A stretch of DNA of 36,169 bases, from assembly GCA_018304145.1 (NCBI GenBank), contig JAGVWU010000004.1:1-36169 (forward strand), in the 5' to 3' direction. Below, piece after piece: positions 8,674 to 36,007 of the stretch (positions are counted from its first letter, which is position 1; the number at the start of each line of letters is the position of its first letter). The notes beneath the pieces are model-generated. The model worked only from the letters and a program-made list of their open reading frames with translations, had not been told where the DNA came from and searched no databases. This DNA comes from Candidatus Pacearchaeota archaeon (GTDB lineage Archaea; Nanobdellota; Nanobdellia; Pacearchaeales; GW2011-AR1). The position numbers and the translations under genes are program-made.

Positions 8674-9417
8674 ATGCCTGAATTCAACATATTAGAGGAT
8701 GCAGGACTTCCGCAAGTTAAAAAACGTGAAGGTATAACTCGGGTAATAACTCCAGAAATAAAGGAGAAAGCAGAAAAATTAGGATTTGATTTTTATGATG
8801 GAGATAGAAAATACGGCTATGGAGGTTATTATTATGATGGGAGATGGAAAGCTGTTGCTAAAACAATAAAAGAAAGATACAACTTAGACAAAAATTCAAA
8901 GGTTTTAATTGACAGATGTCATAAGGGGTTTTTGGTTTTTGATTTAAAAGAGTTAATTCCTGGAATAACTGTTTATGGAATACATCCAGGAGAATATGCC
9001 TTGATTCATGCTATAGAGGGTTATGGAAAATGGGCTTTAATTAATAGAACAGAAAAAGGAGAACCTGAATTTATAGAAGAAAAGGCAAAACAGGCCGTAA
9101 TACCTTATTTATTAAAGGCTGAATCAACTGAAATGCCATTTAATGATGGTTTTTTTGATGTTATTATTTCTATTGAAAATGCATGTTCTTATTCATTGGA
9201 AGAATGCAAGAAGGTTGTTAGAGAAATTATAAGAGTCAGTAAAAATAATGGAAAAAATTGTTATATTCAAAATGATTCCTGGAGAAATGAAAATGAAAAG
9301 CAAAAATTATTAGAATGGACTTACTTATGCAAAACTTTTCTGGATATAAACGATTGGGAAAAATTATATCAAGAGGAGGGTTATAATGGAGACTGGGGAT
9401 ACACAATTATTACATAA
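8674..9417 (+). CDS. Class I methyltransferase-like protein with degenerate SAM-binding motif
   Basis: MPEFNILEDAGLPQVKKREGITRVITPEIKEKAEKLGFDFYDGDRKYGYGGYYYDGRW...KVLIDRCHKGFLVFDLKELIPGITVYGIHPGEYA...MPFNDGFFDVIISIENACSYSLEECKKVVREIIRVSK. Overall methyltransferase-like. The start at 8674 directly follows the upstream stop. Confidence 0.7.
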   Translation: MPEFNILEDAGLPQVKKREGITRVITPEIKEKAEKLGFDFYDGDRKYGYGGYYYDGRWKAVAKTIKERYNLDKNSKVLIDRCHKGFLVFDLKELIPGITVYGIHPGEYALIHAIEGYGKWALINRTEKGEPEFIEEKAKQAVIPYLLKAESTEMPFNDGFFDVIISIENACSYSLEECKKVVREIIRVSKNNGKNCYIQNDSWRNENEKQKLLEWTYLCKTFLDINDWEKLYQEEGYNGDWGYTIIT

Positions 9418-12066: not shown

Positions 12067-12099
12067 ACTTAAAAGTTAACTTTTTAATATTATTAAAAT

Positions 12100-14118: not shown

Positions 14119-14142
14119 ATACTATTAAGATAATAAAAAATT

Positions 14143-15587: not shown

Positions 15588-16127
15588 ATGCTAAAAAAGG
15601 CTTTAATAATTACTTGGGAGGGTTATCAGGACAGTGAAGTCTTATATCCTTATTACAGATTACAAGAAGATGATTTTTATGTAGATATAGCTGCTGAAAA
15701 TCCTGGAGAGATTCACGGTATTCTAGGAACTAAAATTAAAGCAACTATTTCTGTTACAGAAATAAAAGTTGATAATTATGATTTATTAATTCTTCCAGGA
15801 GGAGTTAAAGCCCTTGAAAAAGTAAGGCAACAGAAAATAGTTTTAGATTTCATTCATGAATGGAATGAACAGGGAAAAATAATAGGAGATATTTGCCATG
15901 GAACTCAGCTTTTAATTTCTGCAAAAGTAACTATTGGAAGAAGAATATCTGCATACTATAGCATTAAAGATGATGTTGAAAATTCAGGAGCAACTTACGT
16001 AGATGCTCCCTATGTAACAGATAGAAATATTGTAAGTTCCCCTCATTATAATTATCTTGGTCCTTGGATGAAAGAAGTTTTAAGAGTTTTTTATTTACAC
16101 AATGATAAAAAGAATGAATATAACTGA
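15588..16127 (+). CDS. DJ-1/PfpI family protein
   Basis: KALIITWEGYQDSEVLYPYYRLQE...LLILPGGVKALEKVR...IIGDICHGTQLLISAKV (Cys-His nucleophile elbow). Confidence 0.9.
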   Translation: MLKKALIITWEGYQDSEVLYPYYRLQEDDFYVDIAAENPGEIHGILGTKIKATISVTEIKVDNYDLLILPGGVKALEKVRQQKIVLDFIHEWNEQGKIIGDICHGTQLLISAKVTIGRRISAYYSIKDDVENSGATYVDAPYVTDRNIVSSPHYNYLGPWMKEVLRVFYLHNDKKNEYN

Positions 16128-18654
16128 AAATGACAAAAAAAGCATTTTAGAACATGAATGCCCTAAAGATTCTAATTTAAACAATACAAATTTTTCAGGA
16201 GTTGTAGTGAATAAGCCCTGGGGTTACGAATACCTTATGTTTCAAACTCCTGAAGTTTCTATATGGATGCTTTATATTAAAAAAGGATTTTCTACTTCCA
16301 TGCACTGCCATCCGAACAAAAAAACTTCTTTACTTGTTATTTCGGGTGAAGCTCTTTGCTCTACTTTAAATGAAAGTTTTGAGATTAGGGAAACTGAAGG
16401 GGTTATTTATAATAAAGGAGTTTTTCATATAACAGAGGCTCTATCTGAAAATGGAATTTTTGTAATGGAAGTTGAGACTCCTTCTGATAAGACTGATTTA
16501 TTCAGGTTAAAAGACAAATATAAAAGAGTTATGAAAGCTTATACTGAAAAGAAGAATATTACAAATAAAATTTATAATTATCATTATTTATTTTTAAATG
16601 AAAATATAAATAATTCTACAAACATATTTGGAAAATACAAAATTGTAATAAGAACCTTCAAGAATTCTGAAACTCTTATAAAGAATGTTGAAAATCTTGG
16701 ATTAAATATAGGTATAGTTTTATCTGGAGAAATCTATAATCCTGAGAAAAAAATTGAAATAGGGGATATTTTTGAAAAGTCCAATCTAAACAAAGCTAAA
16801 ATTATTTCTCCTGTAAAATTATTGCTTTTATGTGAAAGAAAAAATTTAATTAGATTATCAGATTATGTCATATCTTTTTTAGAAAAAAAGGGGATTAAAG
16901 ATGTTTTTTTAGTTTCAGGGGGCAACCTTATGTATTTACTTGAATCTACAAGAATAAACAAAAATATGAATCCTATTTGCAATCATCATGAACAAGCTTC
17001 AGCAATGGCTGCAGAAGGTTATTCAAAAATGACTGGAGAAACAGGATTTGCTATGGTCACTAGCGGACCTGGCGGTACCAATGCAATAACTGGTGTTGCT
17101 GGAGCCTGGATAGATTCTAATCCTATGCTGGTTATATCTGGACAATCCTATTCTACTCAGACAATTGGAAAATCCGGTTTAAGACAACTTGGAGTTCAGG
17201 AGATTAATATAGTAAATATTGTAAAGCCTATAACAAAATATGCTGTTATGGTGAGAGACCCAAAAAAAATAAAATATCATTTAGAAAAAGCCCTTTATCT
17301 TGCAAATTCTGGAAGGCCTGGGCCAGTTTGGATTGACATACCGATTAATATTCAGATGGCAATGATAGAAGAAAAAGAATTGGATTCTTTTATAATAAAA
17401 GAAACAAAAAAAGATAATTCTATGTTAATTGAAAATGTAAAATGTGCAATTGAAATGATTAATAATTCAAAAAGACCGGTAATTGTTTTAGGAAATGGGG
17501 TAAGGTTAGCACATGCGCAAAAAGATTTTTTTGAATTAGCTGAAAAACTTTCAATCCCAATTGTCACAACAAGAAATGCGAATGATTTGATTTGGGAAGA
17601 GCATCCGCTTTATGCTGGAAGACCGGGTTCATTTGGTTTGAGAGCTGCTAATTTTACTGTTCAGAACTCTGATTTAATTTTAAGCATAGGCTCTAGGATG
17701 GCTTTGGCTGTTACTGGATGGGCCTACAATGACTTTGCAAGAGGAGCTAAAAAAATATTAGTAGATATAGATGAAGCTGAATTAAAAAAACCAATAATAA
17801 AACCCGATCTTGCAATAAATGCAGATGCTAAATGTTTCATTGTTGAAATGCTTAAACAACTATCCAACTATGAAAAGAAAGATCTTTCAGAATGGAAAGC
17901 TAAAATAAAAAAATGGAAAGAAAAGTATCCAATCTGTCTTCCAGAATATAAAGAAATTAAAGATTCTGTTAATACTTATTATTTTACAGATGTTCTTTCA
18001 AAAAAATTGGAAGAAAGTGATGTCGTTGTAACTGATATGGGTATGAGCTTTCAGTGTGTGATGCAGGCATTTAAATTAAAAGAAAAAGAAAGGTTGTTAA
18101 CTTCAGCAGGATTAGCTGCAATGGGATTTGGACTTCCTGGAGCAATAGGTGCATGCATCGGCAACAATAAAAAAAGAACAATATGCATAACTGGAGACGG
18201 TGGCTTGATGATGAATATTCAAGAACTGCAGACTGTTGTCCATAATAATCTTCCTATAAAGATATTTGTTTTCAATAACAATGGCTACAGTACAATGAGA
18301 GAGACACAAAAAGCTTATTTTGAAGGGCTTATTGGCGCAGAGAAAGAAAGTGGAGTTAGTTTTCCAGATTTAGTAAAAGTTGCGCAATCCTTTAATATTA
18401 AAACTAAAAAAATAATGACTCAAGAAAATCTTGAAAAAGAAATAGAAGAGATTTTGAATTATCCCGGTCCTTTTTTTTGTGATATAAATGTTTCTGAATC
18501 CCAACAGGTAATGCCAAAACAAGGAGCATTCAGAAGACCAGATGGAAAGCCTGTTCCAAGGCCAATAGAAGATATGCTCCCATATATAGAAAGGGAAGAA
18601 TTTGAAAAAGAGATGATAATAGATCCAATTCCTTTTGATCCATATAAAGAGTAA
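16102..18654 (+). CDS. Fusion: N-terminal cupin (possibly two barrels) + acetolactate-synthase-like ThDP-dependent enzyme
   Basis: Cupin PWGYEYLMFQTP...GFSTSMHCHPNKKTSLLVISGEA...YNKGVFHITEAL. Second barrel-like segment IGIVLSGEIYNPEKKIEIGDIF. ThDP module from LIRLSDYVISFLEKKGIKDVFLVSGG, catalytic HHEQASAMAAEGYSK, SGPGGTNAITGV, GDGGLMMNIQELQTVVHNNLPIKIFVFNNNGY. The start may be the internal Met at 16114. Confidence 0.9.
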   Translation: MIKRMNITENDKKSILEHECPKDSNLNNTNFSGVVVNKPWGYEYLMFQTPEVSIWMLYIKKGFSTSMHCHPNKKTSLLVISGEALCSTLNESFEIRETEGVIYNKGVFHITEALSENGIFVMEVETPSDKTDLFRLKDKYKRVMKAYTEKKNITNKIYNYHYLFLNENINNSTNIFGKYKIVIRTFKNSETLIKNVENLGLNIGIVLSGEIYNPEKKIEIGDIFEKSNLNKAKIISPVKLLLLCERKNLIRLSDYVISFLEKKGIKDVFLVSGGNLMYLLESTRINKNMNPICNHHEQASAMAAEGYSKMTGETGFAMVTSGPGGTNAITGVAGAWIDSNPMLVISGQSYSTQTIGKSGLRQLGVQEINIVNIVKPITKYAVMVRDPKKIKYHLEKALYLANSGRPGPVWIDIPINIQMAMIEEKELDSFIIKETKKDNSMLIENVKCAIEMINNSKRPVIVLGNGVRLAHAQKDFFELAEKLSIPIVTTRNANDLIWEEHPLYAGRPGSFGLRAANFTVQNSDLILSIGSRMALAVTGWAYNDFARGAKKILVDIDEAELKKPIIKPDLAINADAKCFIVEMLKQLSNYEKKDLSEWKAKIKKWKEKYPICLPEYKEIKDSVNTYYFTDVLSKKLEESDVVVTDMGMSFQCVMQAFKLKEKERLLTSAGLAAMGFGLPGAIGACIGNNKKRTICITGDGGLMMNIQELQTVVHNNLPIKIFVFNNNGYSTMRETQKAYFEGLIGAEKESGVSFPDLVKVAQSFNIKTKKIMTQENLEKEIEEILNYPGPFFCDINVSESQQVMPKQGAFRRPDGKPVPRPIEDMLPYIEREEFEKEMIIDPIPFDPYKE

Positions 18655-18657
18655 AAT

Positions 18658-19296
18658 ATGGACATTAACTATAAAGCCATATTGTTTGATTTTGATGGAG
18701 TATTAGCAGAAACTATGGAAGAGCTTTTTCTTGCATGGAAAAACGCTTTTTTTAAATTTAACCTAGATATAAAAAAAGAAGATTATTTTATTTTAGAAGG
18801 TATGAAAGTTTTGGAGATTGCCAAAGCAATATCAAAAAAATACCTTGTTAATCCAAATCCTTCAGAAATTGTAAAATTGAAAGATGAATATTATTTTCAA
18901 AATAATAGATTTAAATTTTATAATGGCATAATTTCTTTGGTTGAAAGTTTAAAGAAAAATGGTAAATCTCTTGCAGTTGTTTCTGCTTCTTCAAAAGAAA
19001 AATTAGAAAAAACCGTTCCGAAAGATTTTCTTGAAAAATTTGATGCAGTTGTATGTTCAGAGGATTATTTTAATGGAAAACCTGATCCAGAACCTTATCT
19101 TACTGCAATGAAAAACTTAAATGTAAGTCCAGAAGAATGTATTGTTGTTGAAAATGCTCCTTTGGGAATAAAATCTGCAAAAAAAGCAGGAGCCTATTGC
19201 ATTGCATTAACAACCACTCTTGACAAGGAATATTTGAAAGAAGCTAATGTAATTTTAAACAATCATGAAGAATTAATATCTTATTTAAAAATATAA
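18658..19296 (+). CDS. HAD-superfamily hydrolase, beta-phosphoglucomutase-like
   Basis: AILFDFDGVLAETMEE (DxDG), VVSASSKEKLEKT, KPDPEPYLTAMKNLNVSPEECIVVENAPLGIKSAKKAGAYCIALTT. Confidence 0.93.
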   Translation: MDINYKAILFDFDGVLAETMEELFLAWKNAFFKFNLDIKKEDYFILEGMKVLEIAKAISKKYLVNPNPSEIVKLKDEYYFQNNRFKFYNGIISLVESLKKNGKSLAVVSASSKEKLEKTVPKDFLEKFDAVVCSEDYFNGKPDPEPYLTAMKNLNVSPEECIVVENAPLGIKSAKKAGAYCIALTTTLDKEYLKEANVILNNHEELISYLKI

Positions 19297-19454: not shown

Positions 19455-21065
19455 ATGAAAATATTAATGATTGTTCCAAAATATAGCTTGACAAATTATA
19501 AATTCTATAAATACTTTTTTCCATTAGGATTAACCTATATTTCAGCTGTTATAAAAAAAGCAGGTTATGATATAGATTATTTAAATCTAAACCATCTTGA
19601 AGGAAAAATAGAGGATTTAGTAAAATCAAAATTAGACTCCAAAAACTATGATATAGTCTGTACAGGATACATAGCAATTGGTTATGCAATTATTGAAAAA
19701 ATTATTAATTCTGTAAAAAAACACGAATCTAAACCTAAAATAATACTTGGGGGGGCAATAATAACCACTGAAACGCAGCTGATATTTGATTCATTAAAAC
19801 CTGATTATGGAGTTTTAAGAGAAGGAGAAATAACAATAATAGAATTATTAAAATGTATAGAGAAAAAAGGAGATTTGAAAAAAGTCGATGGAATTTGCTA
19901 TAAGGATGAAAATGGCCAATTGATTATTACCAAACCAAGAGCGCTTATAAAAAACTTAGACTCGATTCCGTTTCCAGATTTAGATGGATTGGGTTTTAAA
20001 GAATATTTAGACAATCAATCTTGTGCCTGGGATAATGGTAGTTTTACTCTTCTAGATTATCCAAGACACTATCAAATCCTTTGTAGCAGGGGGTGCGCAT
20101 ATAATTGTACTTTCTGTTACCATATTCTAGAAAAATACAGGTTAAGAACCTTGGATAATGTCTTTGAAGAAATAGAATTAGTTACTAAAAAGTATAATAT
20201 AAACAGTTTATATATTGAAGATGATTTATTTTCAGCTAACAGGGAAAGGCTATTAGACTTTTGTAAAAGAATTAAGGAGTTAAATAAAAAAATAGGATAT
20301 GAAATAATCTGGGTTTGTAGCTTGTCTGTTAATAATGTAGATGATGAATTGTTAAGAATTTTAAAAGATTCTGGATGTAAAGTTGTTGGATATGGATTTG
20401 AAAGTTACAGTCCTATAGTTTTAAAAAGCATGAAAAAACCAATAACTCCAGAGCAGATTAATGACGGTTTTTATAAAACAATAGGTGCTGGAATAGCTGT
20501 TCAGGCAAATTTTATTTTTGGAGACACTGCTGAAACAAAAGAAACTGCTAGAGAAACAATCGATTGGTGGAAAAAAAATGCAAATGGGCAGGTTTCATTG
20601 GAATTTATTCAGCCATATCCTGGAAGTGAAATGTATAATCGTTGTGTGAGGAAGGGTATAATTAAAGATAGGTTAGATTTTATAAAAAATAAATTACCTT
20701 TTGTAAATTGGTTAAATATGACTGATAATATGACTGATGAAGAAATCATAAAACTTAAAAATGAAATATTGGAATTAAGAAAAGATTATGCCTATTCCAT
20801 ACCTTCTAAGATTAAAAAATTTAAAAGAAATGTATATGATATAAATGTTAAATGCCCTTTTTGCAAGGAAATAATTACTTATAAAAATTGTTATATTGAA
20901 AATAGACTTCGCTACACTTTTTTTGTAGTCTGCAGAAAATGCCCCCATAGATTCTTTATTTTTAGTCCTCTTAAAAAAATCCAAGTTGATAATTATACGA
21001 AAATACAGGTTATAAATAAAAGTTATATCAGATTAAGAGATAAAATTTTAAAGAAATTTTTGTAA
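19455..21065 (+). CDS. B12-binding radical SAM protein with C-terminal zinc-ribbon-like Cys pairs
   Basis: FFPLGLTYISAVIKKAGYDIDYLNLNH; IILGGAIITTETQLI; CSRGCAYNCTFCYHILEKYRLRTLDNVFEEIELV; IEDDLFSANRERLLDFC; C-term VKCPFCKEIITY...VVCRKCPHRFF. Confidence 0.92.
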   Translation: MKILMIVPKYSLTNYKFYKYFFPLGLTYISAVIKKAGYDIDYLNLNHLEGKIEDLVKSKLDSKNYDIVCTGYIAIGYAIIEKIINSVKKHESKPKIILGGAIITTETQLIFDSLKPDYGVLREGEITIIELLKCIEKKGDLKKVDGICYKDENGQLIITKPRALIKNLDSIPFPDLDGLGFKEYLDNQSCAWDNGSFTLLDYPRHYQILCSRGCAYNCTFCYHILEKYRLRTLDNVFEEIELVTKKYNINSLYIEDDLFSANRERLLDFCKRIKELNKKIGYEIIWVCSLSVNNVDDELLRILKDSGCKVVGYGFESYSPIVLKSMKKPITPEQINDGFYKTIGAGIAVQANFIFGDTAETKETARETIDWWKKNANGQVSLEFIQPYPGSEMYNRCVRKGIIKDRLDFIKNKLPFVNWLNMTDNMTDEEIIKLKNEILELRKDYAYSIPSKIKKFKRNVYDINVKCPFCKEIITYKNCYIENRLRYTFFVVCRKCPHRFFIFSPLKKIQVDNYTKIQVINKSYIRLRDKILKKFL

Positions 21066-21089
21066 GGTAAGCTAATTGCTATATCAAAA

Positions 21090-22289
21090 TTAATAATTTT
21101 TTTGTTCTATTACTTTTTCTATAAATTCTCTAATTCTTGGAAAGTTTTTATCAATATTGAAATCCTGCCTTGCTAGAATGATTTTTTTTTCAGCTTCCTT
21201 ATAATCTAATTTTAAAATTTTTTTCCTTATTTCTTTGATATCTTTTTTAAAACCTAGCTGATTTATTTTATATTTTCTCAAAATAGAATCTACATAAAGA
21301 GATTCTTTACTGTAAATTATTGGAAGTCCCGCCTCAAGATAACTGGAAATCTTATTTCCTATATGATATTTAATTTCAGGTATTCTTAATTTAGTTCCGA
21401 ACCAGAAAGAATAGTCATATTTTGATATTTCTTTTATTATTTCTTTAGGTCCAAGTGGTTGATGAATGTGAAAGTATTTGCTTTTCATAAATTTTAAGAA
21501 AAATTCTTTAAAATAACCTTCTGCTTGATTTTGAGGTATGTGCTTTGCCTGAAAATATGCATGAAGATGCAATTTTTGATTTAAAAAGTCATCCAAAAGA
21601 TTCATGGTTCTTTCATAAGCCTCTTTATCATTAAACAAAAACCCCAAATAAGCTATATGTATCTCTTTATCAGACTTAGAAAGCTTATTTTTATTTATTG
21701 GAGAAAAAAATTCATCAGAGCAATAGGCTGAAAAATTCAACTGAAATTTTGGAAGTTTTATATCTGTATAATTAAAAAATTCAAGTTCGTTTGGAGCCCC
21801 TTTATGAATTATTCCATCTGAATTTTCCAAACAATATCTTTCTGCATTCAGCTCAAATTCCTTTACTCCATCTTCCAATGCCTCTTTTCTTGAATTATAA
21901 AACTGGGACAAAATGTCATATGGAAAATAGATAAATGGGTATTTTTTAAAAAAATACTTGTGAACAAGTTTTAACTGCCAATTTGCCCCAGAAATGCCTA
22001 TTACTGCAGAAGGTTTCAGCATTTTTATTTTTATTAAAAATTTAAGGAAGCTAAAACCTCTTTTTGTAAAATAATTAAAAGTTTTTTTATTGGGTTTAAA
22101 AAATCTAAAGTTAGATATAATAATATCGTTAAAGGCATCTTTATAAAAATCCGAATCAAAAGCTTCTTTTTCACACATAGCTATAAGAATAGTTTTATAG
22201 CCATTTTTATTAAAAGCTTTGGCTATTTTATAAGTCAAAATGCTTGGGGGCGATGCAGAATAAAAAATTAGCGGCTCTCTTGCTTTCAT
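21090..22289 (-). CDS. Glycosyltransferase, probable GT-B fold
   Basis: 399 aa. N-term PLIFYSASPPSILTYKIAKAFNKNGYKTILIA; IIKEISKYDYSFWFGTKLR...YHIGNKISSYLEAGLPIIYSKE in the donor-binding position. Confidence 0.65.
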   Translation of the reverse strand: MKAREPLIFYSASPPSILTYKIAKAFNKNGYKTILIAMCEKEAFDSDFYKDAFNDIIISNFRFFKPNKKTFNYFTKRGFSFLKFLIKIKMLKPSAVIGISGANWQLKLVHKYFFKKYPFIYFPYDILSQFYNSRKEALEDGVKEFELNAERYCLENSDGIIHKGAPNELEFFNYTDIKLPKFQLNFSAYCSDEFFSPINKNKLSKSDKEIHIAYLGFLFNDKEAYERTMNLLDDFLNQKLHLHAYFQAKHIPQNQAEGYFKEFFLKFMKSKYFHIHQPLGPKEIIKEISKYDYSFWFGTKLRIPEIKYHIGNKISSYLEAGLPIIYSKESLYVDSILRKYKINQLGFKKDIKEIRKKILKLDYKEAEKKIILARQDFNIDKNFPRIREFIEKVIEQKNY

Positions 22290-24124: not shown

Positions 24125-26140
24125 ATGAAAACTGAGATAGTTCTAGCAGACTTAAGTCATAAAGAAAAAGATAAACACCTCTTCATCTCAATGCCCTTGG
24201 GAATCTCTTATGTTGCAAGTTATGCAAAAAAATATCTTGGAGATAAAATAGACCTTAAACTTTTTAGAGACTCAGATAAATTAATAAAATATCTGGAAAT
24301 AAAAACTCCAAAAATTCTTGGTTTTTCCAATTGTTCTTGGAACTTAGACCTGTCCTATCAAATTTCAAGAAAAGTAAAAGAAAAATTTCCAGACACAATT
24401 ATTGTTTTTGGAGGAACTAATTATCCTTTGGAATTGTTTAAGCAGGAAAAATTCTTAAAATCCCATCCTGCTATTGATTTTTATATAATAAGTGAAGGGG
24501 AATTAGCTTTCCTTCAACTGCTTAATGAGCTTGAAAAATTTAATTTTGATTTAGATTCTTTAAAAAATAACCTAGTAAAAATAGGAAATTGCCATTACAT
24601 TATTAATAATCAAATGATAACAGGAGAGAATCTTCCTAGAATAGAAAATCTTGATGAAATACCATCCCCTTATTTATCTGGATTAATGGATGAATTCTTC
24701 AGTGATTTTGCCAAACCTTTGATGCAAACTACAAGGGGCTGTCCTTTTCAGTGCAGCTACTGCCTTGAAGGAAATCAATATTTTAATAGAATCTCTAGAT
24801 TTTCCCATGATCGAATAAAAAAAGAAATAGAATATATTGCAAAAAAAGCAGAAACTCATACATTGATGTTTTCTGACTCTAATTTTGGGATGTATGAATT
24901 TGATATAGAAACATGCAAGATGGTTGACGAAATCAAAAAAAAATTTTCCTGGCCAAGGTATCTTGAGGCAAATTTAGGAAAAAATAAGAAAACAGTTCTA
25001 GAAGCTATAAATATATTAGGAGATAGTGTAACTGTAGGGGTTCCTGTGCAATCTACGGATGAAATAGTCTTAAATAATATCAATAGAAGAAATATTTCAA
25101 TGGAACTTATAAGTGATTTTATAAAATCAAGTGATTCTGCAGGAGCAAATAGCTTCTCGGAAGTAATAATCGGACTTCCTGGAGATAATTTTGAGAAACA
25201 TGCTAAATCAATGTATAAAATGATTGATCTTGGGGTAAATGTAGTAAGAGCTCATCAATTGGTGATGATTCCATGTTCGCAAATTTCAACAGAAGCTTCT
25301 AGAGAAAAATATAAGATAGTTTCAAGATTCAGGCTTCAACCAAGAAGATTTTTGAATATGTATATTTATGGGGAAAAATTTCCAGTTGCAGAGATAGATG
25401 AAATCTGTGTTTCCAATGAAACCATGTCTTTTAATGAGTATCTTGACTGCAGGTATTTTGATTTAACTGTTGAACTATTTTATAATAATGGTATTTTTAA
25501 AGAACTTATAAGTTTCCTGAAACAAAAAAATATTTTACCTTCGAAATTTATAGAACTAATAAATAAAAAAATACCATTTAGCGATATTAAGGATTTATAT
25601 CAGGATTATATAAAAGAGAACAAGGAAAGTTTATGGGAAGATAGGGATGAGCTTGAAAATCTTATTAAAAAACCAAGGATTATAGAGGAATATCAAGAAA
25701 AAGAGTTGCGAAATAATGAACAGTTCAAATACAGAGCAATTGGATTGTTCCATAAAATAAAAGAATTGCATGATATTGCATTTTCTTCTGCTAATGAATT
25801 ATTGGGGGCAAATGGAAATTATAATGAAGATGAAAAAATATATATTCAAGAGCTAAATATTTTTAGTTTGCTTAGAAAAGTCTATCTTATTTCAATTGAT
25901 AGAGCTGAAATAAGGGATTTTACTTTTGATTTTGTAAAATTATTAAAAAAAGATTTTAAAATTAACCCTCTTGACCCTGAATTAAGAGCTAATATTAAAC
26001 TCCAATTCTTTCATACTCCAGAACAAAAAGAGCTTATTTTAAGTTATATAAAACAATTTGGAACAAGTATAAATGCCTTAGGGCAGATATTGAGTTCTAG
26101 TTACTTTAACAGATTTTATAGGGAACCTAAACAGGTTTAA
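24125..26140 (+). CDS. B12-binding radical SAM protein (paralogue of 12100..14118)
   Basis: ILGFSNCSWNLDLSYQISRKVKEKFPDTIIVFGGTNYP; QTTRGCPFQCSYCLEGNQYFNRI; MFSDSNFGMYEFDIETC; EVIIGLPGDNFEKHAKSMY. Confidence 0.9.
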   Translation: MKTEIVLADLSHKEKDKHLFISMPLGISYVASYAKKYLGDKIDLKLFRDSDKLIKYLEIKTPKILGFSNCSWNLDLSYQISRKVKEKFPDTIIVFGGTNYPLELFKQEKFLKSHPAIDFYIISEGELAFLQLLNELEKFNFDLDSLKNNLVKIGNCHYIINNQMITGENLPRIENLDEIPSPYLSGLMDEFFSDFAKPLMQTTRGCPFQCSYCLEGNQYFNRISRFSHDRIKKEIEYIAKKAETHTLMFSDSNFGMYEFDIETCKMVDEIKKKFSWPRYLEANLGKNKKTVLEAINILGDSVTVGVPVQSTDEIVLNNINRRNISMELISDFIKSSDSAGANSFSEVIIGLPGDNFEKHAKSMYKMIDLGVNVVRAHQLVMIPCSQISTEASREKYKIVSRFRLQPRRFLNMYIYGEKFPVAEIDEICVSNETMSFNEYLDCRYFDLTVELFYNNGIFKELISFLKQKNILPSKFIELINKKIPFSDIKDLYQDYIKENKESLWEDRDELENLIKKPRIIEEYQEKELRNNEQFKYRAIGLFHKIKELHDIAFSSANELLGANGNYNEDEKIYIQELNIFSLLRKVYLISIDRAEIRDFTFDFVKLLKKDFKINPLDPELRANIKLQFFHTPEQKELILSYIKQFGTSINALGQILSSSYFNRFYREPKQV

Positions 26141-26148
26141 AAAATAAA

Positions 26149-26769
26149 ATGAATAGCCATGAAACTTTTGTGATAAACAAATTTAAAGAAGTTGCAAAAC
26201 TAATACCTGCAAAATCAAAGATTCTTGATATTGGATGTAATGATGGCAAATTAAGAGATTTTCTTATTGATTGTGAATATTATGGATTAGATTTGAACAA
26301 GGAAATTATCAATAGTATGATTAAAAATAGAATTAAAGCTAAGCAAATAGATTTGAATAAAGACGAACTTCCTTTTAAGCAAGAAAGGTTTGAATACATA
26401 ACAATGCTCGATGTTTTGGAGCATATAGTAAATCCAGAAAAATTACTTATGGATTCCAAAAATCGGTTAAACGAAAATGGTAAAATGATTATAACTCTTC
26501 CGAATGACTATCATATTTTAAATAAAATACGATTCCTGCTAAATAAGCCACTGACAGAGAATCCCTTTGCACCCCATGGGCATTTGCATTATTTTTCAAT
26601 AAGAGATGGTGAAAGATTTTTAAAAAAAAATGGATTTAAAATAATTAAAAAAATCCCTATTCCTCCTGTTAAACCCTTTGTTATTCCTCAGTCAATAAAG
26701 AATTTTCTTGGAAAGAATTTTCCACAGACTTTTGCAAGGGATGTTTTGTATTTAATGGAAAGAAACTAA
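26149..26769 (+). CDS. Class I SAM-dependent methyltransferase
   Basis: KILDIGCNDGKLRDFL, YYGLDLNKEI, FEYITMLDVLEHIVNPEKLLMDSKNRLNENGKMIITLPN. Confidence 0.9.
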   Translation: MNSHETFVINKFKEVAKLIPAKSKILDIGCNDGKLRDFLIDCEYYGLDLNKEIINSMIKNRIKAKQIDLNKDELPFKQERFEYITMLDVLEHIVNPEKLLMDSKNRLNENGKMIITLPNDYHILNKIRFLLNKPLTENPFAPHGHLHYFSIRDGERFLKKNGFKIIKKIPIPPVKPFVIPQSIKNFLGKNFPQTFARDVLYLMERN

Positions 26770-27827
26770 ACCCTATTGCACCCATTACAAGCCAGAGGAG
26801 CCTTTCTTTCCCTAAGCAATTTTCTGTAAGATTGATAATTTTCTCCATTCCAAATCTTCCAAAAATCCTCCTTTAATATATTGCCAAAACAAGGTTTTCT
26901 ATAATTCAGAATTTTACAGCAGGGAGTTACATAGCCATTCCAGGTAATATAAATGCTTCTCCAGGGCCAAATACAACCAAAGGTTTTTTCTTCATCAAAT
27001 ATTATGGTTATACCATGATTTTTTGCAAGTATTTTTGCATTTCTTACAGCTTCTTTTATTTCATGATTTAATTCAGAAACTGATTCTTGTTTTGCATTGG
27101 GATTATATTTTTCAACATAATCTTGTTTCTCCTGCAAGCCCTGAAAAATTAGTTTTTTAACTCCTAGGTTGTTTGCTAAGGAAATAAATTCAGGCAGTTC
27201 CTTTATATTTTTTTTCATAATAACTATTGACAGGCTTAAAATTGTTTCTTTATTTCTTTTTTTTAGTTCAAGGTTAAGTTTCCTTATATTTTCTAAAACC
27301 TTCTCAAATTTAGCCCCTTTTCTTATCTTTTCATAATTTTTTTTATTTACAGAGTCTAAAGAAACAGCTATTTCTCCTATATTTGTATCACATATCTTAT
27401 CTATAATATTATTTGTTAAAAGAGTTCCATTCGAGCTTAGGTTTATTAAAATCCCCCTATTATTCGCGTATTCAATCATTTGAAAAATCTCTTTGTTAAG
27501 AAAAGGCTCTCCTTGTCCGGAAAGATGTATTTTAAAAAGGCAGTCTAATTTGTCCAATATTTTTTTAAAATCTTCAAAAGAAAGGCTTCCTATTGGAACT
27601 CCTATTTTTTCTCTTATGCACATCTCACAATCAAGATTGCATTCAGAAGTTGGTTCTATCTGGGCAACAACCGGCTTATTGTTTATTATTATTTTTCCTC
27701 GGTTATTAAGAAACTTTATTATATTAAACAAGATTTTAGACCTATTCTTAGAAGAGGTTTTAAAAAAAGTTTGATTGCTCCTGATTGCATCATAATATTT
27801 CCTTAATCTCATAACCTTGTAAGCCAT
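26766..27827 (-). CDS. Radical SAM protein with SPASM domain
   Basis: QIEPTSECNLDCEMCIREKIG (CxxxCxxC); HLSGQGEPFLNKEIFQMI; C-term FGCIWPWRSIYITWNGYVTPCCKILNYR...GNILKEDFWKIWNGENYQSYRKLL...CNGCNRV. Confidence 0.93.
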   Translation of the reverse strand: MAYKVMRLRKYYDAIRSNQTFFKTSSKNRSKILFNIIKFLNNRGKIIINNKPVVAQIEPTSECNLDCEMCIREKIGVPIGSLSFEDFKKILDKLDCLFKIHLSGQGEPFLNKEIFQMIEYANNRGILINLSSNGTLLTNNIIDKICDTNIGEIAVSLDSVNKKNYEKIRKGAKFEKVLENIRKLNLELKKRNKETILSLSIVIMKKNIKELPEFISLANNLGVKKLIFQGLQEKQDYVEKYNPNAKQESVSELNHEIKEAVRNAKILAKNHGITIIFDEEKTFGCIWPWRSIYITWNGYVTPCCKILNYRKPCFGNILKEDFWKIWNGENYQSYRKLLRERKAPLACNGCNRV

Positions 27828-27864: not shown

Positions 27865-28818
27865 TTAATCTTTTCCAGAAGTTCTTTTCTTTCCAGGAGT
27901 ATTTTTTTTGATTGGAGAATTTAAGAGATGAACAACCTTTTTTTTAAATCTAGGGGGCATTGGTTTTAATTCTGGATAAGCATAACTTGGATCAAGAATA
28001 TGAACATCAAACTTGTTTTCAATTAAATACTTATTTAAATGAGATTCATCATGCCATTTTGCCACATAATTCTTGCTTAAATCCTGGTCTATTCTTTTTT
28101 CAAGAATTTCCAATAATTTTAATAGGGATTCTCTCTGACCCCCCCAAAAGGCTCCAACACAATAGTCTGATAAATCATCATTATGGGATACTGATGCAGT
28201 TGATATTGGATTGAATTCAAATTCTCCTGGCTTATTTACATACGAATCATGTTTGACCGCAAATAGTGGTTTGTCATGGGAAAAGAATTCTTCCTCTTTT
28301 ACAGAAGAATTAACATACATGTCTGCATCTATGAAAATAATATGGGAATATTTTTTAAGCTTATTTTTTACCTTATTTATTATACGAAATCTAAGCAAAG
28401 TTGAGAAAGGCCATTTCTGATGCTCAGTTTTAATTATGATAACGTCTTTTTTATCTTTTAAAAAAGGAAAATCTATCATATCTGTAAATACGAAAAAGTC
28501 TTTTGGAGTTTTTTCAAGAAAATATTGTTTCAGTGTTTCATAATACCTTGGGAAAAATTCTATATATCTGCTGGTTCCTATAAATAAAATGGCAATTTTT
28601 GAAACCCGCTGTTTTTGTATTGGATTAATCTGAATACCTTTTCTTAGTTCTTTTAGCATAGCTTTTTTATCAATAGGATATTTACAGATATATGCAACCC
28701 TATATCCAAATATTTTAGTTATTATATTCCCAATATTTCTTGAAAGCCTGCTCATTTTTTGAGATAGGATAGTGCTGTTTAAAAATCCTTTGAGAAGTTT
28801 TAACCTATTTAAACTCAC
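27865..28818 (-). CDS. GT6-family (ABO histo-blood-group / alpha-1,3-Gal(NAc) transferase-like) glycosyltransferase
   Basis: KIAILFIGTSRYIEFFPRYYETLKQYFL...FFVFTD; HQKWPFSTLLRFRIINKVKNKLKKYSHIIFIDADMYV; YCVGAFWGGQRESLLKLLEIL...AKWHDESHLNKYLIENKFDVHILDPSYAYPE. AFxGG and WHDESHLNKYL are hallmark GT6 segments. Confidence 0.9.
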   Translation of the reverse strand: MSLNRLKLLKGFLNSTILSQKMSRLSRNIGNIITKIFGYRVAYICKYPIDKKAMLKELRKGIQINPIQKQRVSKIAILFIGTSRYIEFFPRYYETLKQYFLEKTPKDFFVFTDMIDFPFLKDKKDVIIIKTEHQKWPFSTLLRFRIINKVKNKLKKYSHIIFIDADMYVNSSVKEEEFFSHDKPLFAVKHDSYVNKPGEFEFNPISTASVSHNDDLSDYCVGAFWGGQRESLLKLLEILEKRIDQDLSKNYVAKWHDESHLNKYLIENKFDVHILDPSYAYPELKPMPPRFKKKVVHLLNSPIKKNTPGKKRTSGKD

Positions 28819-29765: not shown

Positions 29766-31898
29766 ATGCAAAAAACCTCAAAAATATATATTGCAGGCCA
29801 TAGAGGACTTGTTGGTTCTGCTATAAAAAGACAACTAGAAAAAGAAGGATACAGAAATATTGTATTTAGAACTTCAGAAGAATTAGATTTGAGAGATTCT
29901 AATAAAGTTGATGAATTCTTCAAAAATGAAAGCCCGGAATATGTTTTTATTGCAGCTGCAAAAGTGGGTGGAATTAAAGCAAATCTGGAAAGAAAAGGGG
30001 AATTTATTTTTGATAATCTCATGATACAAACCAATATGATTCATTCTGCCAGGAAGCATAAATCAAAAAAATTAGTTTTTATTGCAAGCAATTGTATATA
30101 TCCTAAAGAATCAAAACAGCCAATTAAAGAGGAATATTTGTTTACTGGCTATTTAGAACCAACTAACGATGCTTTTGCTGTTGCAAAACTTGCTGGAGTA
30201 AAAATGTGCCAGGCATATAATGAACAATACAACACAAAATTTATAAGTGTTGTTTCTGCAAATGTGTTTGGCCCCGGAGATAATTTTAATCAAGAGGAAG
30301 GTCATTTAGTCGCGTCGTTAATAGAAAAATTCCATAATGCCAAAGTTAATAATCAAAAAGAAGTGATTCTTTGGGGAACAGGAAAACCTAGAAGGGAAAT
30401 GCTATTTGTTGATGATTTTGCAAGAGCATGTATTTTTTTAATGAACAACTATGATTCTTCAGAAATAATTAATATTGGAACAGGGGTTGATTATGAAGTT
30501 AAAGAAATAGCAAAAATAATTAAAGATATTACTGGTTTTGAAGGAGAAATTATTTTTGATGAAAAAAAACCTGATGGAATGTTTAGAAAATTGCTCGATG
30601 TTGAAAGAATAAATTCAATTGGATGGCAGGCTGAGGAAGATAGTTTAGAAGCGCTAAAAAAAACATATCAGTGGTTTTTGAATTCTTTTGGGAACAATAT
30701 CCAAAAAAATAATCTCAAGGTTCAATTAATGAAAAATACATTTTATAATGAAGATGAAACAAAAAAAAATTTAGCAAATTTTATATTAAACTCAAGTAAG
30801 CTTAGTATGGATAAGTACTGCAAGGAGTTTGAAGATTCTTTTTCAAATTATCAAAATAGAAAATTTTCAGTGCTCTACAATAGTGGAAGTTCGGCAAATC
30901 TTGCATTGATACAATCTTTGCTTAATTTGAAAAAAATAAATGTTGGAGACTCTGTAGGATTTTCCTGTTTGACTTGGGCAACAAATGTAATGCCTTTATT
31001 GCAATTAGGATTGAAACCTGCTCCAATAGATGTATCCTTAGATAACCTCAATGTAGATTCTAATAATCTTCTTCTAATTTTGGAGAATATGCCTATAAAG
31101 GTTCTTTTCATAACAAACCTTTTAGGATTCTGTGCTGATTTAAATAAAATAAAAGAGATTTGTGAAAAAAAAGGAATAATTCTCATAGAGGATAATTGCG
31201 AATCTTTAGGAAGCGAACTTAATGGAATAAAACTTGGAAATTTTGGGCTTGCAAGCAGTTTTTCATTTTATGTTGGACATCATTTATCAACAATTGAAGG
31301 GGGAATGGTTTGCACTGATGATGAAATATTATATGAAATGTTATTAATGGTAAGAGCACATGGATGGTCTAGGAACCTTAAAAAAGAAAAAAAAGAAGAA
31401 TTAAGAAAGAACAATGGAATTGAAGAATTCTATAATGATTATACATTTTATACTCTTGGATTTAATCTTCGTCCAACAGAAATTACTGGATTTTCAGGAT
31501 TAAAACAATTAGAGATTATAGATGAAATTCACAAAAAAAGAAATAATAATTTTAAGAGGTATCAAGAAGCAATTAAAAAAAATTCGGACATAATCCCTAT
31601 AAATGTCAATCATATGAGTTTTGTTTCAAATTTTGCCTATCCACTTGTCTTCAAAGAAAAAAATGTCTTTGAAAAGTATAAATTAAAATTTTTAAAAAAT
31701 GTTGAAATAAGGCCTATTGTTGGGGGGGCTATAATAAATCAGCCTTTTTTTCAACAATTCATGAAAGAGAACGATATGATTTATAGAAATTTAAATGCTA
31801 AAAAAATACATGATTTAGGATTTTATATTCCAAATAACCCTGACTTAAACGAGAAAGAAATTGAACTTATTTTAGACTTATTAAGAAAAGATTTTTAA
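29766..31898 (+). CDS. Fusion: GDP-L-fucose-synthase-like SDR (about 29766-30710) + ColD-like PLP-dependent GDP-4-keto-6-deoxymannose 3-dehydratase (about 30735-31898)
   Basis: N-domain: IYIAGHRGLVGSAIKRQLE, ASNCIYPKESKQPIKEEYLFTGYLEPTNDAFAVAKLAGVKMCQAYN, GPGDNFNQEEGHLVASLIEKFHNA. C-domain: DegT/DnrJ fold, NSGSSANLALIQSL, LIEDNCESLGSELNG, SFSFYVGHHLSTIEGGMVCTDD (His in the PLP-Lys position, as in ColD). Confidence 0.92.
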   Translation: MQKTSKIYIAGHRGLVGSAIKRQLEKEGYRNIVFRTSEELDLRDSNKVDEFFKNESPEYVFIAAAKVGGIKANLERKGEFIFDNLMIQTNMIHSARKHKSKKLVFIASNCIYPKESKQPIKEEYLFTGYLEPTNDAFAVAKLAGVKMCQAYNEQYNTKFISVVSANVFGPGDNFNQEEGHLVASLIEKFHNAKVNNQKEVILWGTGKPRREMLFVDDFARACIFLMNNYDSSEIINIGTGVDYEVKEIAKIIKDITGFEGEIIFDEKKPDGMFRKLLDVERINSIGWQAEEDSLEALKKTYQWFLNSFGNNIQKNNLKVQLMKNTFYNEDETKKNLANFILNSSKLSMDKYCKEFEDSFSNYQNRKFSVLYNSGSSANLALIQSLLNLKKINVGDSVGFSCLTWATNVMPLLQLGLKPAPIDVSLDNLNVDSNNLLLILENMPIKVLFITNLLGFCADLNKIKEICEKKGIILIEDNCESLGSELNGIKLGNFGLASSFSFYVGHHLSTIEGGMVCTDDEILYEMLLMVRAHGWSRNLKKEKKEELRKNNGIEEFYNDYTFYTLGFNLRPTEITGFSGLKQLEIIDEIHKKRNNNFKRYQEAIKKNSDIIPINVNHMSFVSNFAYPLVFKEKNVFEKYKLKFLKNVEIRPIVGGAIINQPFFQQFMKENDMIYRNLNAKKIHDLGFYIPNNPDLNEKEIELILDLLRKDF

Positions 31899-31920: not shown

Positions 31921-33102
31921 ATGAAATTTTCAGATGCTGCTGAAAGATTAAAAGGACAAGAAATGTTCCAGATTTTAGCAAAAACACAGGAGCTTGAAAG
32001 AGCTGGAAAAGAAATATTGCATTTTGAACTTGGAGATCCTGATTTTAATACTCCTGATAATATAACTTATGCAGCAATCAAATCTTTGAGCAATGGAGAA
32101 ACTCATTATTCAAATTCTTATGGACTTTTAGAATTAAGGGAAACTGCTGCAAAAGCAACAGAAACCGGAATAAGAGGATTTAGGCCGGATTTGGATCAAA
32201 TTCTAGTAACTCCTTGTGCAAATATTCAAATCTATTATACTCTGGCCTGTGTTGCAAATGCTGGTGATGAAGTCATTATTCCAGATCCTAGCTTTGTTAC
32301 TTATAACTCTGTTGCAGAATTTTTAGGATTAAAGATTGTTAGAGTTCCTTTACATGAAAAAAATGAGTTCAGGCTAAATCCAAAAGATGTTGAAAAAATG
32401 ATAACTGCAAAAACAAAAGTTATTATAATAAATTCCCCAAGTAATCCTACTGGAGCGGTTATGAATGAAGAAGAAATAAGAGAAATTTTTGAGCTTGCAA
32501 GAAAACATGATATTTTTTTATTGAGTGATGAGGTTTATAGAAGAATAACTTATCTTGATGAAGAAACCAAATTTTTTTCACCAAGTGTCTATGATCTTTG
32601 TAAAGAAAGAACAATTGTTATCAATGGATTCAGCAAATCTTATGCAATGACTGGCTGGAGATTAGGTGTTATAATGGGGCCTAAAGAATTGATTAAAAAA
32701 ATGAATCTGCTTCTTGAAACAACTTCTTCTTGCGTTGCTCCTTTTATTCAAAAAGCTGGAATTGAAGCATTAAAAGGTAGCCAAGAAAGAGTAAATGAAA
32801 TGACTAATGAATACAGGAAGAGAAGAGATATTATAGTTGATGGATTAAACAAATTACCTGGAGTAAAATGCGTTAAACCAAGAGGAGCTTTTTATGTTTT
32901 TCCTAATATAACTGGGACTGGAATGACAAGCAAAGAATTTGGAGATTTTATGCTTTATAATGCGGGAGTTTCAATTGCTCCAGGACCTGTTTTTGGAAAT
33001 TATGGAGAAGGTTATGTAAGATTTTGCTATGCAAATTCAATTGAGAACATAAAAAAGGCTCTTGATAAAATGAAGATAGCTTTGGAAAATAGAAACATTT
33101 AA
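31921..33102 (+). CDS. Class I/II fold-type I aminotransferase (aspartate aminotransferase-like)
   Basis: ILHFELGDPDFNTPDNI, INSPSNPTGAVMNEEEI, LLSDEVYRRITY, INGFSKSYAMTGWRLGVIMGP (PLP Lys), YVRFCYANSIENI. Confidence 0.93.
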   Translation: MKFSDAAERLKGQEMFQILAKTQELERAGKEILHFELGDPDFNTPDNITYAAIKSLSNGETHYSNSYGLLELRETAAKATETGIRGFRPDLDQILVTPCANIQIYYTLACVANAGDEVIIPDPSFVTYNSVAEFLGLKIVRVPLHEKNEFRLNPKDVEKMITAKTKVIIINSPSNPTGAVMNEEEIREIFELARKHDIFLLSDEVYRRITYLDEETKFFSPSVYDLCKERTIVINGFSKSYAMTGWRLGVIMGPKELIKKMNLLLETTSSCVAPFIQKAGIEALKGSQERVNEMTNEYRKRRDIIVDGLNKLPGVKCVKPRGAFYVFPNITGTGMTSKEFGDFMLYNAGVSIAPGPVFGNYGEGYVRFCYANSIENIKKALDKMKIALENRNI

Positions 33103-34895
33103 TATTTTGTAGTTTCCCAGCCTTCCAGCGGAGGAATTATCATCTGACTTTTGAATTCTTCTCTAGGCAAATATGGCTCCATATCTTCAATAGGTGTTTT
33201 CCATCCAGATACTCTTGGCTCATAATTATCCCATCCAGAAACATCCAAGTTACATACTGCAGGGCCATCAAAATCTAAAACTTCTTTTATTTTTTCCTGC
33301 ATCTCAGAATTTGTTTCTATTGAAAAAGTTTTTATTCCATAAGCCTGACAAATCTTCAAAAAATCTGGAGGATTATATCCTTTAGGACCACTTGCTTCGT
33401 ATCTGCATTGCAAATTTGTTCTTTGAAATGCGCGAATAATTCCATAGCAATTATTATTGATTATAAAAGTCTTGAATTTTAAATTATAATTTTTAACTGT
33501 TTGCAGTTCCTGAATATTCATATTGAAACCTCCATCTCCAATTATGCAAACAGTATTATGAATCCTGTCTGAAGCAAGCCAAGCTCCCATTGCTCCTGCA
33601 AAAGAAAAACCCATTGGAGAATTCCCATTGTTAGTTATGAATCTTTGAGAATGTTTTGTTTCAAATGCCTGGCTGGCTAAAACAATATTCCCTCCGCAAT
33701 CACCTACTAGAATATCTTTTTCCTTCATCATTTCAGAAAGAATTCTCATGAAATTATAAGGATTAATTTCTTCAGAATCAGCTGGTTCAAATTTACCTGG
33801 ATCATATTTATTTTTCCAATCAATAACTTTTTCTGTCCAGGATGAAAAATCCGGAATAGAAATATTTTTCAAAGCAGAATTAAATCTTTCAAGAAAAACT
33901 TTTGCATCTGAAAGAATGCATTCGTTAAATGGTAATTGTTGTAATTTTTTTTGCAGAAGAGGTTCATCTATATCAATAACATATTTTTTTGCAGCTCTTG
34001 CAAAAGAGGTCACATTTCCTCCAGTTATTCTTCCAGAGATTCTGCTTCCTATTGCAATTAATAAATCCGAGTTCTGTATGCCTAAATTTCTTCCCGCTCC
34101 ACCATAAGTCCCTACTCTTCCACCATAATACTCAAAATCTGAAGTTACAATATCAAGGGCATTCCAAGTTGGAAAACAAGGAATCTTAAGCTTTCTTGCA
34201 ACTTCTAAAAATAAATCAACTGATTTTGCAAGCCTTACTCCAGAACCTATAAGAAAAACAGGTCTTTTAGAATTGAAAATATCTTTTATAAGTAAATCTA
34301 TTTTTTTATCCAAATAATTAAAATTAGGCAAATTTTCATAAGCAGACAAATCAAAACCAATTAATTTTGTTGGTTCAATTTCTGCTTTTTGAACATCCAT
34401 TGGAACGTCTAGTAAAACAGGGCCTGGCCTTTTGCTTTTAGCTATATAAACTGCTTTTTCTAATTCATACCTTATATCTTTTGGGTTTATGATAAGTTTT
34501 GCATATTTTGTTATTGGAGTAACAATATCAACTATAGGAGTTTCTTGAAATCCTGATTGCCTAAGTGAATTTTCTATACGTAAAACTTGCGAATTAACCT
34601 GTCCTGTTATAAAAACACATGGGACTGAATCATAATAGCAATTAGCAATTGGAGTAACAAGGTTATGCCCTCCTGGACCACTGGTTCCTATTGCAACCCC
34701 TAAATTTTCAGAAATTTTTGCATAAGCTTCTGCTGCAAAACCTTCTGCCTGCTCGTGCATCACTGCAAGGTAGTTTACGTTAGGATTTAAAGCAACAGCA
34801 TCAATTATTGCCGCATCACCCGAACCTGTCAATACAAAAAAATCTTTTACTCCCAAATTTGCAAGATAGCCTATAACATAATCAACGACTCTCAT
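33099..34895 (-). CDS. Acetolactate-synthase-like ThDP-dependent enzyme
   Basis: VIGYLANLGVKDFFVLTGSGDAAIIDA; MHEQAEGFAAEAYAK (catalytic Glu); GTSGPGGHNLVTPIANCYYDSVPCVFITGQ; GDGGFNMNIQELQTVKNYNLKFKTFIINNNCYG (ThDP motif). Confidence 0.92.
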   Translation of the reverse strand: MRVVDYVIGYLANLGVKDFFVLTGSGDAAIIDAVALNPNVNYLAVMHEQAEGFAAEAYAKISENLGVAIGTSGPGGHNLVTPIANCYYDSVPCVFITGQVNSQVLRIENSLRQSGFQETPIVDIVTPITKYAKLIINPKDIRYELEKAVYIAKSKRPGPVLLDVPMDVQKAEIEPTKLIGFDLSAYENLPNFNYLDKKIDLLIKDIFNSKRPVFLIGSGVRLAKSVDLFLEVARKLKIPCFPTWNALDIVTSDFEYYGGRVGTYGGAGRNLGIQNSDLLIAIGSRISGRITGGNVTSFARAAKKYVIDIDEPLLQKKLQQLPFNECILSDAKVFLERFNSALKNISIPDFSSWTEKVIDWKNKYDPGKFEPADSEEINPYNFMRILSEMMKEKDILVGDCGGNIVLASQAFETKHSQRFITNNGNSPMGFSFAGAMGAWLASDRIHNTVCIIGDGGFNMNIQELQTVKNYNLKFKTFIINNNCYGIIRAFQRTNLQCRYEASGPKGYNPPDFLKICQAYGIKTFSIETNSEMQEKIKEVLDFDGPAVCNLDVSGWDNYEPRVSGWKTPIEDMEPYLPREEFKSQMIIPPLEGWETTKY

Positions 34896-34928
34896 TCTTG
34901 AACCTAGGATTTTTTGATTATAAAAATG

Positions 34929-34938
34929 TTTATATAAT
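34929..34938 (+). promoter_or_regulatory. Putative archaeal TATA box for the 34964 gene
   Basis: TTTATATAAT about 30 bp upstream of ATG 34964. It lies inside the ORF-track N-terminal extension (34898 start), arguing for the downstream start and a nearly leaderless transcript. Confidence 0.45.
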
Positions 34939-34963
34939 CAAATATATAGTTAAAAAGAATTGG

Positions 34964-36007
34964 ATGAGTATGATAAACCAAGCTATTAAAGAAGATGTAG
35001 AAAAAATACTTAAAAAAAATAAAGAATTTCTTTTTAGTTTAGCAGGAAAAAAAGTATTAATTACTGGTGGAAATGGATTTATTCCAAGTTATATTGTTGA
35101 TACCCTAACTATTATCAATAAACAGCTGAATAATCCATGCAAACTTATTCTCCTAAATAAAAATCCAATAAATGAAAAATCCAGACTTTCACATCTTATT
35201 AATGATTCTAATATAGAATTTTTATCACAAGATGTTGGAAAACCTTTTAAAATAAATTCTAAAATAGATGTTATAATTCATGCGGCATCAAGAGCGAATC
35301 CAACTTCTTTTTTAGAGAACCCTTTGGATACTATTGATTCAAATGTAAATGGATTAAGAACTTTGCTTGATTTTGCTGTTAAAAATCCTGTTGAAAATTT
35401 TATTTTTTTTAGCAGTGCTGAAATTTATGGGAATCCCCCTAATGAATTTATACCTACTCCAGAGAATTATAATGGAAATGTAGACTGCACTTCAAAGAGG
35501 GCATGTTATTCAGAATCCAAAAGATTCTGTGAAACTTTGTGCATGACTTATTTCAGAAAATATGCAGTCCCAATAAAAATACTAAGAATCTTTCATACCT
35601 ACGGACCTGGTTTGAGGAATGATGGAAAAGCTATAACTGACTTTTTTAAAAATGGAGTCAATTACAAAAAAATTCTTTTAAAGGATAGAGGGGAATCAAG
35701 GATGACTTTTTGTTATGTTTCTGATTTGATTAATGCTATTTTTTTGATTTTATCCAAAGGCAAATCAGGGGAAGTTTATAATGTTGGAAATGATTTAGAA
35801 GATATTTCCATAATTGAGCTTGCAAAAATAATAGGAAGCATTATTGGAGGAGTTCCTGTAATCGCTGGAGAACAAGGAAACTACAGAGATAGATTTAAAA
35901 TAGAATTGAGAAAACCTGATATTTCTAAATTAAGAGAACTTGGATTTGCTCCTGAAATATTTTTAAAAGAGGGTTTATTTAGAATGTATAATTCTCTTGG
36001 GATTTGA
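34964..36007 (+). CDS. NAD-dependent epimerase/dehydratase (extended SDR; UDP-glucuronate decarboxylase-like)
   Basis: KVLITGGNGFIPSYIVDTL, HAASRANPTSFLENPLDTIDSNVNG, FSSAEIYGNP, CYSESKRFCETLC (YxxxK), LRIFHTYGPGLRNDGKAI, MTFCYVSDLINAI, GEVYNVGND. Confidence 0.88.
   Translation: MSMINQAIKEDVEKILKKNKEFLFSLAGKKVLITGGNGFIPSYIVDTLTIINKQLNNPCKLILLNKNPINEKSRLSHLINDSNIEFLSQDVGKPFKINSKIDVIIHAASRANPTSFLENPLDTIDSNVNGLRTLLDFAVKNPVENFIFFSSAEIYGNPPNEFIPTPENYNGNVDCTSKRACYSESKRFCETLCMTYFRKYAVPIKILRIFHTYGPGLRNDGKAITDFFKNGVNYKKILLKDRGESRMTFCYVSDLINAIFLILSKGKSGEVYNVGNDLEDISIIELAKIIGSIIGGVPVIAGEQGNYRDRFKIELRKPDISKLRELGFAPEIFLKEGLFRMYNSLGI

Follow-up and report, generated by a model that had tools for sequence, protein, structure and literature searches.

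The stretch of archaeal DNA analysed here (the window), which is a complete contig (C37) of 36,169 bp from a 1.15-Mb genome that is 86.6% complete, encodes a GDP-fucose-synthase-like SDR and a ColD-like PLP 3-dehydratase in one continuous 710-codon frame (29766–31898, + strand), and the SDR half carries Phe in place of its catalytic Tyr. Enzymes of these two kinds normally catalyse successive steps towards the rare sugar colitose. That this open reading frame truly joins the genes of two successive sugar-nucleotide enzymes is, in our judgement, practically certain. As to its function, we tentatively propose, at a little under an even chance, that it is a fused 3-dehydratase/epimerase whose 4-keto product would be kept for ThDP-dependent C-branching.

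A preliminary description of this DNA had claimed one uninterrupted 710-aa open reading frame, and this was borne out by the open frame itself and by the two Pfam domains that it contains, Epimerase (PF01370, residues 7–238, E = 1.5e-58) and DegT_DnrJ_EryC1 (PF01041, residues 329–705, E = 5.7e-56). The start ATG is preceded by GGGAG, which resembles a ribosome-binding (SD) site. The same description had named a missed stop or frameshift between the domains as the finding that would speak against a fusion; we found none in the sequence, and the single frame together with the continuous GC content across the join (0.31/0.26/0.27) rules this out. The halves are connected by an interdomain linker (30690–30728, + strand), followed by an ATG at residue 322 (30729–30731) that is the likely ancestral ColD start and that coincides with the start position of a separate phage ColD (LMKNTF vs. 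LMKSTF). Because of this match, the fusion looks like the result of a stop codon lost between two neighbouring genes. The internal ATG, which is preceded only by a weak AAGG, may also allow additional initiation.

The C-terminal half (residues about 317–710, or 322–710 counted from the internal ATG; 30729–31895, + strand) was compared with ColD structures, a check that had been suggested beforehand, and ColD proved to be its best match both by sequence (2gms, E = 1.4e-55; 192 bits, compared with 130 for E1 dehydrase and 85 for PseC) and by predicted fold, with ColD structures ranked first (3b8x best) and GDP-perosamine synthase and E1 next. The model used for this fold search was of moderate quality (pLDDT 72, alignment of 12 sequences), and the SDR and ColD halves were folded as separate models. 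Alignment to ColD placed His505 (31278–31280, + strand) at the position of ColD His188, where it replaces the PLP Lys, in agreement with the preliminary description; the altered letter of 3b8x (H188N) falls exactly in this column, and the column is invariant in the 12-sequence alignment of His-type dehydratases. The ColD top match, the fold ranking and the invariant His505 together rule out an ordinary Lys aminotransferase. Since the PLP site has the ColD-type His, C3 deoxygenation rather than transamination is predicted, and the earlier claim to that effect is thus supported at the family level. We therefore consider it very probable that this half is a ColD-type PLP/PMP 3-dehydratase with a predicted family-level dehydration activity.

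The N-terminal half (residues 1–308; 29766–30689, + strand) has the GDP-fucose synthase (GFS) fold, as judged by sequence (1bsv, E = 2.9e-95) and by an AF2 model (pLDDT 93; best PDB fold 1gfs, TM 0.94), and it scored 420.7 bits against NCBIfam GDPFucSynFcl, under the equivalog cut-off of 500. In GDP-fucose synthase, epimerisation at C3 and C5 is carried out by Cys and His, and C4 reduction relies on Tyr as the acid. Alignment to E. coli GFS showed that the NADP motif is retained and that the Cys/His epimerase dyad is complete, with Ser108-Asn109-Cys110 (30087–30095, + strand) corresponding to Ser107-Ser108-Cys109, and His180 (30303–30305, + strand), the epimerase acid, to His179. The Ser-Tyr-Lys reductase triad is incomplete: Ser108 and Lys141 (30186–30188, + strand; GFS Lys140) are retained, and Phe137 (TTT, 30174–30176, + strand) replaces Tyr136 of the SDR YxxxK motif, a substitution that had previously been overlooked. 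In human GFS, the Y143F change removes about 99% of kcat, makes reduction rate-limiting, leaves about 3% activity and affects epimerisation much less than reduction (PMC12362431). However, C. jejuni MlghC, a GFS homologue with a natural Phe136 that has lost the epimerase Cys, does reduce C4 (PMC7949155), so that Phe alone is no proof of a dead reductase. We consider it somewhat more likely than not, with these precedents on either side, that C4 reduction by the SDR half is impaired. In a subgroup of E1-linked Phe-type Fcl (GDP-fucose-synthase-like) proteins (L092, L093, L094, L099, L104), Ser107 is also replaced by Cys and His179 by Leu, and judging by sequence, the reductase and epimerase sites of these proteins are both altered.

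A scan of the genome collection with the Phe motif EPTNxxF[AS]xAK gave 45 matches, of which 29 were true Fcl homologues and 16 were dropped as chance matches without Fcl homology; the viral scan gave just two matches, both chance. We then compared the genes flanking 81 Fcl genes, over as much as 9 kb in either direction, namely 30 of the Phe type (window included) and 51 of the Tyr type. The controls consisted of 40 loci with the Tyr motif, taken from genomes of Patescibacteria, Planctomycetota, Omnitrophota and Pseudomonadota, of second, Tyr-type copies in the genomes that have a Phe type, and of loci from phages and plasmids. A gene for a ThDP enzyme (E1-alpha/beta, split transketolase or YerE-like near the Phe types) was present within 9 kb of 23/30 Phe-type but 6/51 Tyr-type genes (p = 4.7e-9, uncorrected for ancestry, in samples unlike in taxonomy). 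Some partners of the Phe types are transketolases, which could simply supply sedoheptulose-7-phosphate. With transketolase left out as a possible heptose precursor supply, E1 or YerE-like genes were still found near 13/30 Phe-type vs. 4/51 Tyr-type genes (p = 8e-5 without the Tyr copy that shares locus L094). These p-values overstate independence, since just two Phe changes are forced by supported branches, out of nine on the best tree.

Other gene families also differed between the two groups, with HddA-like GHMP kinase genes in 16/30 Phe vs. 1/50 Tyr loci and B12 radical SAM genes in 18/30 vs. 3/50, while matches to GDP-mannose 4,6-dehydratase (GMD) were rarer near the Phe type (8/30 vs. 40/50) and, among Phe loci, reached at least 50% identity in L103 and L111 only. 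A close relative (G1006 C61, 57%) is of the Tyr type and adjoins a transketolase. A recurring set comprising Phe-type Fcl, HddA-like kinase, nucleotidyltransferase, epimerase, B12 radical SAM and split transketolase was seen in L089, L090, L091, L110, L112 and L114, which span Omnitrophota, a Phycisphaerae genome and Betaproteobacteria.

Within the window, two genes encode predicted YerE/JanthE-like ThDP carboligases that retain the ThDP Glu (in 33099–34895, that of the HEQ motif) and the GDG...NN motif. One (33099–34895, − strand) scored 294 bits against JanthE (8rph) vs. 263 against acetolactate synthase (AHAS), and the other (16102–18654, + strand), an 850-aa fusion with a weakly cupin-like N domain, scored 424 vs. 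305, so that JanthE was the best PDB match of both and the margin over acetolactate synthase was clear for 16102–18654 only. No ilvD was found, which makes a branched-chain amino-acid role unlikely; with JanthE as best match, we do not favour valine/isoleucine acetolactate synthases. Known keto-sugar C-branching enzymes are ThDP enzymes of the YerE-like, alphaKADH2 and transketolase types (PMC12247030). Both window genes lie outside the operon of the fusion, 33099–34895 being convergent and 16102–18654 being 11 kb distant.

The more distant gene sits between a DJ-1/PfpI gene (15588–16127, + strand; PF01965) and a HAD hydrolase gene (18658–19296, + strand), and neighbourhood comparison identified these as belonging to a conserved cassette that surrounds Phe-type Fcl. 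In L086, L092, L093, L094, L099 and L104, genes for DJ-1, a cupin-like protein and HAD surround Phe-type Fcl and E1-alpha/beta, and there the homologue of the cupin-like N domain is a separate gene beside E1-alpha/beta; cassette genes occurred in 7/30 Phe vs. 0/50 Tyr loci. Judging from gene content, the window seems to carry this cassette in altered form: a YerE-type domain joined to the cupin would take the place of the separate cupin and E1 pair, and the cassette's Fcl would have moved 11 kb off and been joined to ColD. Elsewhere, the cassette (L086 9001–15450, L092 324–5035, L093 5471–10216, L094 1–8514, L099 4666–10443, L104 1257–5947) is made up of DJ-1, Phe-type Fcl, cupin-like protein, (enolase-superfamily protein), HAD, E1-alpha and E1-beta, and ranges over several phyla and an archaeon.

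For a glycan-type locus, radical SAM genes are unusually dense in the window (9386–15546, 24125–26140, 26766–27827), two of them with B12-binding domains (9386–11215 and 24125–26140). It also contains a glycosyltransferase family 6 domain (27865–28818, − strand; PF03414, E = 8e-21) in what is an archaeal genome, with archaeal Spt5/NusG and RFC genes on other contigs. Family 6 is the family of the ABO and alpha-Gal transferases. A UDP-glucuronate-decarboxylase-like SDR (34898–36007, + strand; 2b69, 159 bits) has homologues that adjoin ThDP genes in L087, L096, L097, L127 and L162, and by analogy with EvdS6, an SDR of this kind that makes a 4-keto acceptor (PMC10338323), it could make another such acceptor in the window.

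In the pathway that we tentatively favour, the C-terminal half would remove the C3-OH from an NDP-4-keto-6-deoxyhexose, probably GDP-linked, as expected from His505 in place of the Schiff-base Lys, and the N-terminal half would be an efficient epimerase at C5, and perhaps at C3, but a poor reductase of the C4 ketone, as expected from the retained Cys/His dyad and the Phe in place of the catalytic Tyr. Most of the product would then be an NDP-4-keto-3,6-dideoxy-L-sugar instead of colitose, and one of the window's two YerE/JanthE-like carboligases would use its 4-ketone as acceptor, yielding a C4-branched sugar. The ColD match and its His, Phe137 together with Cys110 and His180, the human Y143F data, the ThDP association, the link of GMD-free loci with Phe and ThDP genes, the cassette, the JanthE-like enzyme, the lack of a detected ilvD and the ThDP types known to branch keto sugars argue for C-branching. 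Against it stand MlghC, the Tyr-type G1006 C61, the position of the ThDP genes outside the fusion operon, and the kinship, transketolases and taxonomy that bear on the neighbourhood counts. Our confidence is limited, as Phe weakens reduction without necessarily ending it and transketolase may serve heptose supply. More doubtful, though still a serious possibility, is the broader proposal that Tyr-to-Phe Fcl proteins form a widespread, undescribed class of sugar-nucleotide epimerases that gave up C4 reduction in favour of C4-branching by ThDP carboligases of the E1-alpha/beta, transketolase or YerE type, and that is fused here to a ColD-type 3-dehydratase.

The preliminary description instead had the fused SDR complete the GDP-colitose pathway from GDP-4-keto-6-deoxymannose. 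For an ordinary colitose enzyme of this kind, the ColD half would deoxygenate C3 and the SDR half would epimerise C5 and reduce C4 despite Phe, with water or another residue acting as the acid in place of Tyr, and the reduction by MlghC and the residual activity of human Y143F are consistent with this. Colitose enzymes are also the best matches of both halves, relatives encode ColD-GMD fusions, and a 642-kb phage has neighbouring genes in the same domain order, as do, with GMD alongside, a Synechococcus phage and a Chelatococcus plasmid. However, no recognisable GMD was found in the window's own genome at its 87% completeness (best 71.6 bits vs. a cut-off of 415), ThDP genes cluster with the Phe types, and loci with a true GMD, a ColD-type dehydratase and Fcl had a Tyr-type Fcl and no ThDP gene in 8/8 sampled, whereas the window has Phe and two ThDP carboligases. 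When only loci whose His-type dehydratase shares at least 30% identity with the ColD half were compared, the 11 without GMD (window included) had Phe in 8 and a ThDP gene in 8, and the association of GMD presence with each gave p = 0.003. Taken with the lack of GMD in its own genome, this groups the fusion with the non-colitose type. From the earlier interpretation, the fusion, the ColD-type His and C3 deoxygenation thus stand, but an SDR that finishes GDP-colitose is not supported, and we consider this route unlikely. Literature searches on colitose in archaea and on Fcl in connection with branched sugars brought up no relevant papers.

A heptose route, in which the SDR half acts like MlghC on a GDP-heptose-derived 4-keto sugar, the ThDP/transketolase association reflects supply of heptose precursors and the product is a 3-deoxy-heptose, would fit with the natural Phe136 of MlghC and with the HddA-like kinases and HddC/ManC-like nucleotidyltransferases often present in Phe-type loci. 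The window's genome itself encodes what resembles a GDP-heptose pathway on another contig (G000 C28, L191 8271–14647), with an HddA-like kinase, two nucleotidyltransferases and two HAD-IIIA (GmhB-like) phosphatases. We nevertheless regard this route as quite improbable: the kinases scored 172–263, far under the HddA cut-off of 600, heptose precursors are not made by E1-alpha/beta or YerE-like enzymes, the ColD half resembles the hexose enzyme ColD, and the window keeps both Cys and His where MlghC has lost the epimerase Cys. Least probable, and in our view very unlikely, is an SDR half that is catalytically silent or serves the ColD half mainly as scaffold or regulator; the loss of the key Tyr, and of Ser107 and His179 as well in the E1-linked subgroup, would fit with this, but the window retains Ser, Cys, Lys, His and the NADP motif in a well-folded model.

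Fusions of ColD are not confined to the window. The database search for the same architecture that had been suggested beforehand recovered other ColD fusions but no second Fcl-ColD fusion among 371 phylum genomes, and across these and 137 relatives, the Phe-type Fcl-ColD fusion was present in the window only. The same archaeal family encodes SDR-ColD-GMD (G046, 1060 aa; L005 1486–4668), ColD-GMD (G1006, 814 aa) and GMD-ColD (G875, 776 aa), suggesting that ColD has been joined to various pathway neighbours several times. The G046 protein, possibly three consecutive steps in one chain, was ruled out as the same architecture, being a triple fusion with a different SDR. Related genomes have further SDR-DegT fusions at L182 4740–6917 (RmlD-like and DegT, 726 aa) and L183 4952–7018 (epimerase and DegT, 689 aa). 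The 642-kb uncultured phage record LR756502.1 carries ColC-like and ColD-like genes (L029 12001–12927 and 12931–14100) in frame and separated by a stop and one codon, as well as a second ColD-like match (20594–21775). With its stop between two adjacent open reading frames, this pair is ruled out as a second full-length fusion; it likely represents the ancestral arrangement of the fusion.

To our knowledge, carbon-branched sugars are rare, most predicted ThDP branching enzymes are without a known substrate, and the surface glycans of tiny-genome archaea are nearly unknown. If our proposal is correct, the change from YxxxK to FxxxK in GDP-fucose synthase homologues would be a one-residue marker of carbon-branched-sugar loci, and branched-sugar chemistry would extend to tiny-genome archaea. 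The fused proteins (SDR-ColD, SDR-ColD-GMD) would also be ready two- and three-step catalysts.

Compared with known systems, the SDR half shares with GFS and ColC (1gfs, 1bsv) the fold, the NADP motif and the equivalents of Ser107, Cys109, Lys140 and His179, and differs in its Phe for Tyr136, its fused ColD and its score under the equivalog cut-off. With MlghC (PDB 7anc), the GDP-heptose C4 reductase of C. jejuni, it has in common the GFS homology and the natural Phe, but MlghC has Tyr109 where the epimerase Cys was. The C-terminal half has the DegT/AAT fold and Lys-to-His change of ColD, to which it is about 30% identical, and departs from it in being fused to an SDR and in a genome with no GMD found to make ColD's known substrate. 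The window ThDP enzymes most resemble YerE and JanthE, carboligases for branched sugars such as yersiniose A, though one differs little in score from acetolactate synthase and the other has the additional cupin-like domain. The fusions of G046, G1006 and G875 likewise join ColD to neighbouring pathway enzymes, but to GMD and/or a Tyr-bearing SDR that is not an Fcl, where the window has a Phe-type Fcl.
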